A stretch of 44,216 nt of DNA from Pseudomonadota bacterium. GTDB taxonomy: Bacteria; Pseudomonadota; Gammaproteobacteria; Steroidobacterales; Woeseiaceae. A program made the position numbers and the translations under genes. The stretch is taken from positions 1-44,216 of the forward strand of contig JAQCAD010000025.1 in the NCBI GenBank assembly GCA_027621915.1, in the 5' to 3' direction. Positions 5,277 through 44,216 of the stretch are shown here, piece after piece (position 1 is the first letter of the stretch; the number at the start of each line of letters is the position of its first letter). A model generated the notes under the pieces. That model saw nothing but the letters and a program-made list of their open reading frames with translations, was not told the DNA's origin and did not search any database.

Positions 5277-6674
5277 ATGGTTCGAGCGCTGGATGATGGA
5301 CTTCCAATTGACGCCGCAGAGCGCAGGCTCAAGGTGCCGCCAAATTCCATCGAGGCAGAGCAGTCGCTGATCGGTGGCCTCATGCAGGATAACGAAGCAT
5401 GGGATAAGGTCGCTGATCTGATCGTCGCTCAGGACTTTTATCGAAAAGACCATCGGCTGATATTTGCGGCCATTGCCGATCTGGCCGAAGACGGTCATCC
5501 ATGCGATGTCGTGACAGTTTCTGAGTTCCTTGGCAATCGCAACCAGCTGAACGATGCAGGTGGCCTTGAATATCTGGCCACACTGACAAATGAAACTCCC
5601 GGGGCTGCAAACGTCAGGGCATATGCGAAGATCTTGCGGGAGCGATCGACTTTGCGATCGCTCATCTCTGCAGGCAATGTCATCAGTGGAAGCGCGTACG
5701 TAACTGATGGCAGGTCGGCTTCCCAACTGGTCGATGAGGCAGAACGACTGGTGTTCGATATCGCCGAGAAGGGCGCGCGTGGAAAGGCCGGATTCAAATC
5801 GCTTAAACAAATCCTGCCTGATGCGGTAGATCGAATCGATTTGCTGCACCAGTCCGGTGGCGATATCACCGGTATTCCTACCGGGTTTAGTGAATTTGAC
5901 AAACTGACTGCGGGTCTCCAGCCGGGTGACCTCGTTATAATCGCGGGCCGTCCATCGATGGGCAAGACAACGCTGGCGATCAATATTGCGGAAAACGCAG
6001 CGATTGGCGCGCGAATTCCGACGGCCATTTTTTCGATGGAAATGCCATCGCAGCAGCTGGCCTTCCGTATGATTTCATCACTCGGACGAGTTGATCAGAC
6101 GCACCTTCGCACAGGAAAATTTCCGGATGAGGACTGGTCGCGAATCAACACAGCCGTTCAGCTTATGTCTGACGCACCTATTTATATAGACGATTCTCCA
6201 GGATTATCGCCTACGGAAATTCGCGCCCGCGCCCGGCGTCTGAAGCGCGAATCGAATCTGGGCCTTATCGTACTGGACTACCTGCAGTTGATGCAGGTTC
6301 ACGGGAACACGGAAAATCGGGCGACTGAGATCTCGGAGATATCCCGATCGCTGAAGTCACTTGCGAAAGAGTTGAGTTTGCCGATTATTGCCCTGTCGCA
6401 GTTAAACAGAAGTGTTGAACAGCGGCAGGACAAACGCCCTGTGATGTCCGACCTGCGTGAATCAGGTGCAATCGAACAGGACGCTGACCTTATCGTTTTT
6501 ATCTACCGCGAAGAAGTTTACAAGCCGGATACGCCACGAAAGGGCATTGCCGATATCAGTATTGCCAAGCAGCGTAATGGCCCTATCGGTGAGTTTCCAC
6601 TGACATTCGTTGGCCGGTTTACGAAGTTTGAAAACTGGGTTCCAAACTCCTACGCGGACGAGACTTTTCAGTGA
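5277..6674 (+). CDS. dnaB: Replicative DNA helicase DnaB
   Basis: The hexameric 5'-to-3' helicase that unwinds DNA at the replication fork. The N-terminal DnaB domain starts at PPNSIEAEQSLIGGLM (residue 21 on) and lies before a linker near 165-190. The RecA-like ATPase has Walker A GRPSMGKTT at 225-233, a Walker B segment LGLIVLDYLQLM, and the DnaB motifs ALSQLNRSVEQRQDKRP and SDLRESGAIEQDADL. Length 465 matches the family (471 in E. coli) with no intein. The ATG at 5277 is preceded by GGAGAGACAGG. The stop overlaps the alr start by four bases. Confidence 0.97.
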   Translation: MVRALDDGLPIDAAERRLKVPPNSIEAEQSLIGGLMQDNEAWDKVADLIVAQDFYRKDHRLIFAAIADLAEDGHPCDVVTVSEFLGNRNQLNDAGGLEYLATLTNETPGAANVRAYAKILRERSTLRSLISAGNVISGSAYVTDGRSASQLVDEAERLVFDIAEKGARGKAGFKSLKQILPDAVDRIDLLHQSGGDITGIPTGFSEFDKLTAGLQPGDLVIIAGRPSMGKTTLAINIAENAAIGARIPTAIFSMEMPSQQLAFRMISSLGRVDQTHLRTGKFPDEDWSRINTAVQLMSDAPIYIDDSPGLSPTEIRARARRLKRESNLGLIVLDYLQLMQVHGNTENRATEISEISRSLKSLAKELSLPIIALSQLNRSVEQRQDKRPVMSDLRESGAIEQDADLIVFIYREEVYKPDTPRKGIADISIAKQRNGPIGEFPLTFVGRFTKFENWVPNSYADETFQ

Positions 6675-42455: not shown

Positions 42456-42546
<91 letters not shown>

Positions 42547-43111
42547 AGTTATATCGGTAACGTATTGTTTTAAAACGTTATATACGGATATAGAGTTATT
42601 CAGTACCACATAATGTCCCACATTAGTTTTGCGTTACTCTGCGCAAATCAAGCTTTTCGCCTGTATCCAGAAATACGCAAGATCAGCCTTCTGGCTATCA
42701 ATCTGCCCCTCAAGAAACGCCTGCTCAATAAGATCCACCAACTCAGGATCAGGTGGCCTGGTTGCGTCCAAGATTTCGGGTAATTCACATTGAAGGCATG
42801 ACATTCATTGAGCATGCCTAGACTTAGGATTGATTGCCTTATCTGAATCTAGGCTTTTCTTGCTGAAATGGGTTTCGTCCAATGGGGGTGCCAGGGCAAA
42901 AACCATTAGTCCAAATAGGTCAATGACCCCATCTGTAGCGGTCGAGAAAAACAAAAGGGACCTTTTCCTGAAATTTTTTTGGAAAAAATAAAAAGAAGCC
43001 TATTTCCATTCTATGCAGCACGCAGAGCGGGGGCATACGGGTATCCGGAGCCCGTTTGCTGGCGGTGGCGTATAGTTAGTGTGGGTAGTCTTTTTTTTGG
43101 GAGATTCGCAG
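42547..43111. other. Gene-poor, AT-rich stretch after tRNA-Ser
   Basis: Apart from one small minus-strand frame (42634-42804) I see no gene here. The first 60 bases are AT-rich and include the palindrome GTTTTAAAAC. GCCTAGA (42816-42822) and TCTAGGC (42848-42854) form a stem followed by TTTTCT, a possible terminator with a long loop. ACGGGTATCCGGAGCCCGT at 43037-43055 is a palindromic relative of the repeat at 17889. TATAGT at 43070-43075 could be a -10 for the genes that follow, without a visible -35. No second copy of the tRNA 3' end is found in the window. Confidence 0.5.
42634..42804 (-). CDS. Small unrecognised protein with N-terminal CxxC (56 aa)
   Basis: A 56-residue frame starting at an ATG on the minus strand (MSCLQCELPEILDATRPPDP) and ending at 42634. 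It has a CLQC pair at residues 3-6, a Pro-rich turn, and an acidic amphipathic helix region (ELVDLIEQAFLEGQIDSQKA) ending in FWIQAKSLICAE. Composition looks protein-like and the third codon positions vary as in real genes, but no clear ribosome site precedes it. It could be a free-standing small protein or the tail of a decayed gene. I assign no function. Confidence 0.45.
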   Translation of the reverse strand: MSCLQCELPEILDATRPPDPELVDLIEQAFLEGQIDSQKADLAYFWIQAKSLICAE

Positions 43112-43405
43112 ATGGACAATGAATTGAGGCGATACCTCGATTTCGCTGAAAAGGAAGAGATTATGGACGGCTATCGAACGGGCGCGGCGCAGGACTATCG
43201 CACACGGGCCCTTGCCGTCGAGGTTCAGACGGCAATTGAGCGGCACAACCCTATTCTTGGCATACAACAACTCATCGGATTTCAGATTTTATCACAAGGA
43301 ATGCTCTTGCAAAGTCTGCAGGGTCTGATGGCTTCCGTAAGGATTATACTCATTGTGAACAGTGCTCTTATAGCCTTAGTTGCTTGGCTCCTCTACATCA
43401 AATAG
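43112..43405 (+). CDS. Small tail-anchored membrane protein, unknown (97 aa)
   Basis: Not recognised. From the ATG at 43112 (GGGAG eight bases upstream; an earlier in-frame GTG at 43079 lacks one) the protein starts MDNELRRYLDFAEKEEIMDG, with a charged soluble part of about 70 residues and a single C-terminal helix (IILIVNSALIALVAWLLYI). The N-terminal part would face the cytoplasm. It is the first of three small membrane-protein genes on this strand, 51 bases before the next. Confidence 0.7.
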   Translation: MDNELRRYLDFAEKEEIMDGYRTGAAQDYRTRALAVEVQTAIERHNPILGIQQLIGFQILSQGMLLQSLQGLMASVRIILIVNSALIALVAWLLYIK

Positions 43406-43456
43406 TGCCGCACTGAAAAAAGAGGATTTTTCTCGATTGATGCGGAGGCATATCTA

Positions 43457-43738
43457 TTGGTGGAAGAAATTCAACTTAGACAGATTGAGATTGCTTATGA
43501 ACGCGCTGAGGCGAAACGCGAAACGGCGAGTCCGTTCGCGTGGATCGTGGGTATTCTTGTGGGATTCAAGATTGAAGCATACGGATTCAGTCCGGCAGTA
43601 ACTATACCTTTTGGATTACTCGCCGTTGGTATTTCGTATTGGCCATTTATGAAGAATGCGAACGCGAGACTTGAGGAGTGGAATGTTGCCAAGAACGAAT
43701 TGTCTGACGGCGGAGATTTGGGCAAGAATGCGAGTTGA
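43457..43738 (+). CDS. Small membrane protein with two helices, unknown (93 aa)
   Basis: Not recognised. The start is TTG at 43457 with GGAGG eight bases upstream (a GTG follows at once). A charged N-terminal helix (EEIQLRQIEIAYERAEAKRE) is followed by two hydrophobic segments (PFAWIVGILVGFKIEAYGF and TIPFGLLAVGISYWPFM) forming a hairpin, and a polar C-terminus (NARLEEWNVAKNELSDGG). Both ends should be on the same side, probably cytoplasmic. Arrangement with its neighbours suggests co-expression. Confidence 0.65.
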   Translation: MVEEIQLRQIEIAYERAEAKRETASPFAWIVGILVGFKIEAYGFSPAVTIPFGLLAVGISYWPFMKNANARLEEWNVAKNELSDGGDLGKNAS

Positions 43739-43849
43739 ATGTTCGCCTAAACTCCAAAAATGATCGTGCATCGTTTCATCGCACAAGCCAGAAGCCTAGA
43801 TTGGGTTACGGTATACCTCACTCCGATCATAGCTCTACAGGATTGAGGA

Positions 43850-44216
43850 ATGAAGATCACACCCGTAATTGGAACGGCCGAAGCTTCAGGGTTCTTGTTT
43901 TTGGTAATAGTCGCTTTGCTCGGAATTGCAGGCTTGATTAGCGCGCTTTGGATAGGCGCGGTTAATTCTGTTTTGAATTGGCGCGTCATAATGATCGCCC
44001 CCTTGATCGCCTATCTTTTGTATCACTTCGCTAAAACCAGACTCGCTGTTTACCGGGCGATAGGAAAATCGAAAGCCGTCGTGCGGCTTGAGCTGGAACG
44101 TAATGAGGCCGAGTTAATAACTGAACTTGCCGAAATGATGATCAAAGTCCCAATTTGGCTCGGCACATTGAGTGCTCTCGGGACGTGGGGCTATCAGCTC
44201 ATTTCGTGGCTGAGGG
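43850..44216 (+). CDS. Small membrane protein, unknown, cut by the right edge (122 aa visible)
   Basis: Not recognised. From the ATG at 43850 (CAGGA eight bases upstream, GAGG nearer) the frame stays open to the end of the window. It starts MKITPVIGTAEASGF, then has two strong hydrophobic helices (FLFLVIVALLGIAGLISALW and VIMIAPLIAYLLYHFA), a charged helix (KAVVRLELERNEAELITELA) and the beginning of a third hydrophobic segment (IWLGTLSALGTWGYQLI). It lies 111 bases after the preceding small membrane protein gene on the same strand. Confidence 0.65.
   Translation, partial: MKITPVIGTAEASGFLFLVIVALLGIAGLISALWIGAVNSVLNWRVIMIAPLIAYLLYHFAKTRLAVYRAIGKSKAVVRLELERNEAELITELAEMMIKVPIWLGTLSALGTWGYQLISWLR

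Follow-up and report, generated by a model that had tools for sequence, protein, structure and literature searches.

A recurrent small gene at the tRNA end of a probable integrative island in a Woeseiaceae genome

Positions 42547-44216 of contig C20 probably represent the attL end of an integrative island, inserted between the tRNA-Ser(GGA) gene and its terminator, with a tyrosine integrase carrying an arm-binding domain at the other end, on contig C97. A 56-codon open reading frame (ORF) and its leader would form a left-end module shared with other islands, and three short plus-strand ORFs would be cargo. The island itself is of a known kind; the new feature is the recurrent left-end gene. 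The window analysed here comprises contig C20 in full (44216 bases), which belongs to a MAG of 3.56 Mb in 101 contigs, and the sequence to the left of position 42456 is mostly housekeeping. The features discussed are collected in Table 1.

Table 1. Positions of features at the right-hand end of contig C20
Feature	Position	Strand	Basis
tRNA-Ser(GGA), integration target, intact	42456-42546	+	ARAGORN; Rfam tRNA 58.1 bits
att core CCCCCTCTCCGCCA (tRNA 3′ end)	42533-42546	+	Exact repeat at C97:1732-1745
Probable island left end, running past the contig end	42547-44216		att sites, arm repeats, lower G+C, orphan genes
Arm-type direct repeats TACCACA-N5-TCCCACA	42604-42622	+	Pattern search
56-aa CxxC ORF, recurrent island left-end gene	42634-42804	-	Six genome copies; purifying selection on codons 1-44; 27 matches, 19/396 genomes
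Conserved non-coding leader of the 56-aa ORF, putative promoter region	42805-42999	-	Alignment of copies
97-aa ORF, C-terminal hydrophobic segment, orphan cargo	43112-43405	+	ATG start; an upstream GTG would give 108 aa
93-aa ORF, two moderately hydrophobic stretches, orphan cargo	43457-43738	+	TTG start; GTG at 43460 possible
Hydrophobic ORF (at least 122 aa), truncated by the contig end, orphan cargo	43850-44216	+	ORF list, hydropathy, shuffles

Results

The probable two ends of the island at tRNA-Ser(GGA)

Contig C20 terminates within the island, and the opposite end probably sits on a separate contig, C97. All 14 nucleotides of the tRNA 3′ end, CCCCCTCTCCGCCA, recur at C97:1732-1745, and the corresponding match on contig C51 extends over 12 nucleotides. 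A 25-nucleotide pattern of the tRNA 3′ end was also searched over the whole genome, allowing up to three mismatches. It was found at six places, all of them tRNA genes: four tRNA-Ser genes (the one on C12 recognised by eye), a tRNA-Asp and a tRNA-Tyr. Since the pattern occurs only in tRNA genes, no longer detached copy is seen beyond those on C97 and C51. A tyrosine integrase is encoded on the minus strand to the left of the C97 core (C97:362-1636), with an internal ATG as its likely start codon. Both this integrase and that on C51 contain Arm-DNA-bind_3, Phage_int_M and Phage_integrase domains.

To the right of the C97 core lie a hairpin and a stretch resembling the sequence directly after tRNA-Ser(GGA) in relatives G012 and G021. 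When the flanks of C20 and C97 are joined, tRNA-Ser is followed by the hairpin, as in G004, G006, G008, G012 and G021. No contig or read connects C20 with C97; judged from the att sites, rather than from reads, they appear to be the two ends of one island. The site was viewed by eye in nine relatives. The hairpin directly follows the tRNA in the five just named and is absent after it in three (G005, G017 and G020), while G007 has a run of N at this position. In G006 about 2.2 kb separate tRNA-Ser(GGA) from the gene that follows attR on the right; of the eight same-genus relatives having this gene, G006 is the only one in which the two are close together. G005 has them about 38 kb from each other on the same contig, five relatives have them on different contigs, and no tRNA-Ser(GGA) was identified in G001.

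A preliminary description of the window had suggested integration at tRNA-Ser, and noted an AT-rich gap after the tRNA. Both observations hold: arm repeats follow the tRNA, the 14-nucleotide copy of its 3′ end and an integrase are present on C97, the terminator comes directly after the tRNA in relatives, and the G+C content is 0.466 at 42547-44216 compared with 0.532 at 1-42400. The integrase and the repeated tRNA 3′ end for which a search had been advised were both located on C97, and the empty site for which relatives were to be checked was seen in five of the nine viewed.

Some further matches to RNA genes were recorded. Three Rfam matches below the gathering scores, to Plastid-psbl-rps4 and sX4 over the tRNA and to MIR6146 at 42866-42908 (E 0.66), were all read as chance or cross-hits. 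Several genomes (G003:C9:44070-44142, G004:C20:123663-123714, G006:C167:1405-1456 and G018:C28:27400-27472) have partial tRNA-Ser copies, consisting of 5′ parts, about 100-400 bp ahead of the full gene; the same is seen on C69 of the genome studied here, upstream of tRNA-Ser(CGA). G012 (L050) has two more tRNA-Ser 3′-end copies with hairpins, at 1746-1764 and 1917-1935, in an array-like arrangement downstream of the gene.

Arm-type repeats

The paired repeat that follows tRNA-Ser(GGA) on C20 was also found after tRNA-Ser(CGA) on C69, after tRNA-SeC and tRNA-Ser(GGA) in G011, after tRNA-Ser(GCT) in G002 and after tRNA-Ser(GGA) in G003. The same motif immediately precedes the start of the integrase gene on both C97 and C51; no other place in the loci compared had it. 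At other targets different repeats, recognised by eye, occupy the same position: TACCCGC pairs at radC, and GGGTAGC pairs at tRNA-Thr and tRNA-Arg. No clear arm-repeat pair was seen by eye at the tRNA-Glu copy on C3.

Distribution and conservation of the 56-aa ORF

The 56-aa ORF is present in six copies in its own genome, three of them at the paired islands. Of 396 genomes sampled from the order, 19 have it (its own included), and these belong to four of 72 genera. There were 27 matches in total, some of them weak (E up to 8e-4), and seven contained an in-frame stop codon. Fifteen copies are convergent with a tRNA gene within 450 nucleotides, four lie in radC and seven have no identified target; the remaining copy, on C75, starts beside a tRNA cut by the contig end, by eye a tRNA-Thr. 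The target tRNAs are those for Ser (GGA, CGA and GCT), Arg (ACG and TCG), Glu, Thr and SeC. Similarity between copies at different kinds of target ends near codon 44-47, and in alignments of several copies of the tRNA-Ser/SeC type it continues as far as the tRNA.

Substitutions were compared over the first 44 codons of eight copies, two of them with a stop. Pooled pS was 0.402 and pooled pN 0.089, with pairwise ratios of 0.07-0.37. Among the other frames, antisense +1 came nearest (pS 0.255, pN 0.124), and pS in the remaining four was at most 0.162. The ORF is under purifying selection, and selection on codons 1-44 rules it out as a chance frame.

The encoded protein is acidic, with a pI of 4.05. 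It had no match in Pfam, NCBIfam, PADLOC and other family libraries, and no model of the excisionase or AlpA families in these libraries matched it; a match to phrog_37793 (E 0.12) was discarded as weak. An AlphaFold model built from five sequences consists of three short helices (mean pLDDT 75.5). A search of the PDB with this model gave nothing at E 0.001 or better, the best match having E 0.75, and a known fold was therefore rejected. Searches of 72,556 plasmid records, 50,697 phage records and viral contigs did not return the ORF, so that it does not appear to be a plasmid or phage gene. No description of it was found in the titles or opening lines of abstracts of papers on circle promoters, radC and tRNA islands, Woeseia islands, tycheposons and soj, which is a weak negative since the ORF has no name.

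No island ends were paired in the relatives that carry the small ORF, which counts against the generality of the arrangement, and two of these relatives have few integrase matches. In G011 there are only two Phage_integrase matches, both scoring like Xer-type ones, and in G003 the matches are only Xer-like apart from one fragment. Together with the lack of pairing, this suggests that the islands in G011 and G003 are decayed, or incomplete in the assemblies.

Sister islands and other integrases in the genome

Two further islands of the same layout were found in the genome, one at tRNA-Ser(CGA) with its ends on C69 and C51, and one inside radC with its ends on C68 and C99. C69 and C51 have a 14-nucleotide core in common, and a partial integrase ORF runs off C51. 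The tRNA-Ser gene on C12 has this core too, and a hairpin directly follows it. C68 and C99 share a 17-nucleotide core within radC at the codons for ILAHNH (C68:3228 and C99:4566). Joining the C68 and C99 flanks restores an uninterrupted radC frame, and thus this island splits radC. The small ORF lies in radC at the same motif in three other genomes. The C97 and C51 integrases, both of the tRNA-Ser type, are 83% identical, and the radC type is 32% identical to the tRNA-Ser type.

The core test yielded four further matches of 12-15 nucleotides, between C49 (tRNA-Arg) and C47, C3 (tRNA-Glu) and C99, C75 and C97, and C75 and C25. Short matches alone are therefore weak, and the three island pairs rest on the presence of an integrase beside the core and on what is restored by joining the flanks. 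No credible partner end was found by core matching across contigs for the copies of the small ORF on C3, C49 and C75. Transposase-like ORFs were seen by eye just beyond the copies on C49 (L073), C3 (L072) and C75 (L071). With no partner integrase end and with these ORFs alongside, the three islands look decayed or rearranged. The match on C25 (L089, around position 5521) is 15 nucleotides long and corresponds to the anticodon stem of the C75 tRNA; it is near an integrase adjoining a dusA-like gene (by eye).

A second island layout was observed on C4 (L088, 4072-5527), where an integrase with an arm domain lies directly beside tRNA-Cys without the small ORF. Its identity to the radC-type integrase is 37%, above that between the radC and tRNA-Ser types. 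The small ORF thus does not simply track integrase type, since the C4 integrase is nearer to the radC type yet is not accompanied by the ORF.

The plus-strand ORFs

In the preliminary description the region was seen as a cluster in which a 56-residue CxxC frame and three short membrane proteins all read in the same direction. The frame is confirmed, but the minus strand encodes it, and it reads toward the tRNA and away from the three plus-strand ORFs. It is therefore outside any transcript of those ORFs and was rejected as a member of their cluster. The three ORFs of 97, 93 and at least 122 aa are present as described, with gaps of about 50 and 110 nucleotides between them. In 1000 dinucleotide shuffles of 43001-44216, scored for non-overlapping same-strand ORFs of at least 90 aa, three such ORFs never occurred and two occurred in 65 shuffles. 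The three ORFs are not the product of chance. Membrane character is borne out for the 97-aa product and for that of at least 122 aa, each of which has 19-residue windows with hydropathy of at least 1.6; the 93-aa product has no such window, and its membrane nature is therefore weaker.

Occurrence of these genes at a shared position in distant lineages had been named beforehand as an argument against a mobile cluster; no credible relatives of the plus-strand ORFs were found in 148 other genomes. Among the 149 genomes searched, the 97-aa ORF was matched in its own genome only. The ORF of at least 122 aa had, besides that in its own genome, one match (E 0.005), which lay within a stop-containing frame of 558 aa. 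The 93-aa ORF had, besides that in its own genome, four matches over about 50 residues (E 6e-4 to 6e-3) in frames of 605-902 aa, three of them with a stop. All five weak matches were discarded as membrane-segment noise. There was no credible match in Pfam, NCBIfam, PADLOC and other family libraries, and PADLOC-DB gave no family for any of the four proteins, the 56-aa protein included, at E up to 1. Matches of the 97-aa ORF to PRK01175 (E 0.03, far short of the cut-off) and of the ORF of at least 122 aa to phrog_13641 (E 0.11) and phrog_33422 (E 0.39) were discarded. Nothing matched the 97-aa ORF or that of at least 122 aa, the two searched, in viral contigs, nor any of the three in plasmid records. 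Codon-usage scores did not separate the frames.

The three plus-strand ORFs are thus orphan island cargo. The preliminary description saw in them the part of the window most likely to be an undescribed system, which they may be; the real signal in the region comes from the 56-aa frame. The tRNA-Ser(GGA) site is a hotspot whose cargo varies. In G003, other genes are carried behind this tRNA and arm motif, and in G011 (C260, L074, 3172-3989) their place is taken by two ORFs that resemble by eye a DUF1778 antitoxin and a GNAT toxin.

Arrangement of the ends in the predicted circular form

Each of the three paired islands has the small ORF on its target side and the integrase at the opposite end, both on the same strand. 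Excision would therefore place the module upstream of the integrase across attP. The order in the predicted circle is the same in each of the three, with the small ORF, the core and the integrase start following one another in one direction. Counting from the ATG of the small ORF, the core occupies nucleotides 259-272 and the integrase ATG is at 427-428 in the circles of the two tRNA-Ser islands; the corresponding positions for the radC island are 240-256 and 474. An in-frame fusion of the small ORF to the integrase across attP was rejected, because the small ORFs end at stop codons at nucleotides 169, 169 and 193, before the core. The ORF and leader are common to islands with different targets and different integrases, the latter of two types. 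A scan specific to sigma-70-type promoters found no such site in the leader; over the stretch it gave a single site, inside the 97-aa ORF, compared with a chance mean of 2.0.

Discussion

The island resembles several known elements. Like the tRNA islands of the Islander class (PMC4383910), it has an intact tRNA at one end, a 3′ tRNA fragment at the other and a tyrosine integrase between them. It differs in that its ends are on two contigs, that a conserved small ORF is present at the tRNA end, and that sister islands with this ORF also target radC. The Pseudomonas tmRNA islands I23, I44 and I55 (PMC12595487) likewise have a 14-bp direct repeat at the 3′ end of an RNA gene, an integrase at one end, a small gene at the other and variable cargo. 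Their integrase, as described there, is near the RNA-gene end and their small regulatory gene is alpA, whereas no alpA match was detected for the 56-aa ORF. Tycheposons, as described for Methylophilaceae in PMC10872708, are similar in occurring in marine bacteria and in having a tRNA at the border, a tyrosine recombinase and cargo. That recombinase is called xerD there, whereas the integrases described here have an arm-binding domain.

The closest parallel for the arrangement in the circle is provided by ICEclc, in which, according to PMC2704930, a strong outward promoter at the other end is put before intB13 on circularisation; Pcirc is listed for intB13 in PMC2892462. In both ICEclc and the present islands the integrase is at one end, and an element at the other end faces the junction and precedes the integrase in the circle. 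The outward element here is, in contrast, a conserved coding sequence whose promoter is only putative, the integrase is distal rather than proximal to the target gene, and conjugation genes were not seen in the stretches examined.

By analogy, we tentatively propose that the module most likely serves, in the manner of Pcirc, to control the integrase, whose expression it would drive or tune once the island is circular. Transcription from the leader would cover the small ORF and would reach the integrase only in the circle, while the small acidic protein may act on or tune the recombination step. A broader proposal, which we regard as conceivable but doubtful, is that the family of acidic CxxC proteins of about 50 residues constitutes a general island left-end module in Woeseiaceae and related Gammaproteobacteria. 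It would be exchanged among integrases of differing target specificity and, being upstream of the integrase after excision, would sense or enforce circularisation, a form of circle-dependent integrase control that is protein-coding.

Excisionases are generally known as basic DNA-binding proteins. The 56-aa protein could instead be a recombination directionality factor of the excisionase kind, situated at attL and acting on the integrase or on the arm sites so as to favour excision, in which case its reading toward attP would be incidental. Its position beside the P′ arm, at the opposite end from the integrase in all three paired islands, would suit such a factor, as would purifying selection and its occurrence with different arm types. 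We nevertheless consider this rather unlikely, given the acidic pI, the lack of a family match, and a three-helix model that is of moderate confidence and matches nothing in the PDB.

The plus-strand ORFs may have a defence or exclusion role. That the three together make up a self-contained unit of the island, whether for defence, for exclusion or as a toxin-antitoxin system, is unlikely. In its favour, they are small same-strand genes behind an att site, islands of this kind often carry defence genes (PMC12595487), and the DUF1778/GNAT-like pair recognised by eye in G011 occupies the same tRNA and arm motif. Against it, nothing in PADLOC, Pfam or NCBIfam matched them, the third gene is incomplete, the ORFs are spaced about 50 and 110 nucleotides apart, and no relatives show the genes travelling together.

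It is quite improbable that the 56-aa ORF and its leader are a non-autonomous repeat that spreads on its own to island ends and tRNA 3′ regions and has no role in the island. Six copies in one genome and a patchy occurrence would fit such a repeat, and so would the copies with in-frame stops (7 of 27) or without an identified target (also 7 of 27). Against it are selection at the protein level over 44 codons, the constant position between the arm repeats and the cargo, and the presence of copies at the target ends of the three paired islands. An ordinary, vertically inherited gene cluster without mobility is scarcely credible and was rejected, for although the genes to the left of the tRNA are kept in relatives (by eye in G003, G006 and G011), the terminator adjoins the tRNA directly in five relatives, the gene content is orphan, and the core repeat and an integrase are present on C97.

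Islands in tRNA genes are common, but where a MAG is fragmented it is difficult to locate their ends. In this group such ends can be searched for with the conserved small left-end gene as a marker, which in the present genome allowed three islands to be paired across contigs, including the one that splits radC. The orphan cargo genes may, as candidates, account for island functions that are uncharacterised. If the arrangement upstream of the integrase in the circle works as proposed, it would represent a testable form of integrase control by circularisation, one that involves a protein and is common to different integrase types.
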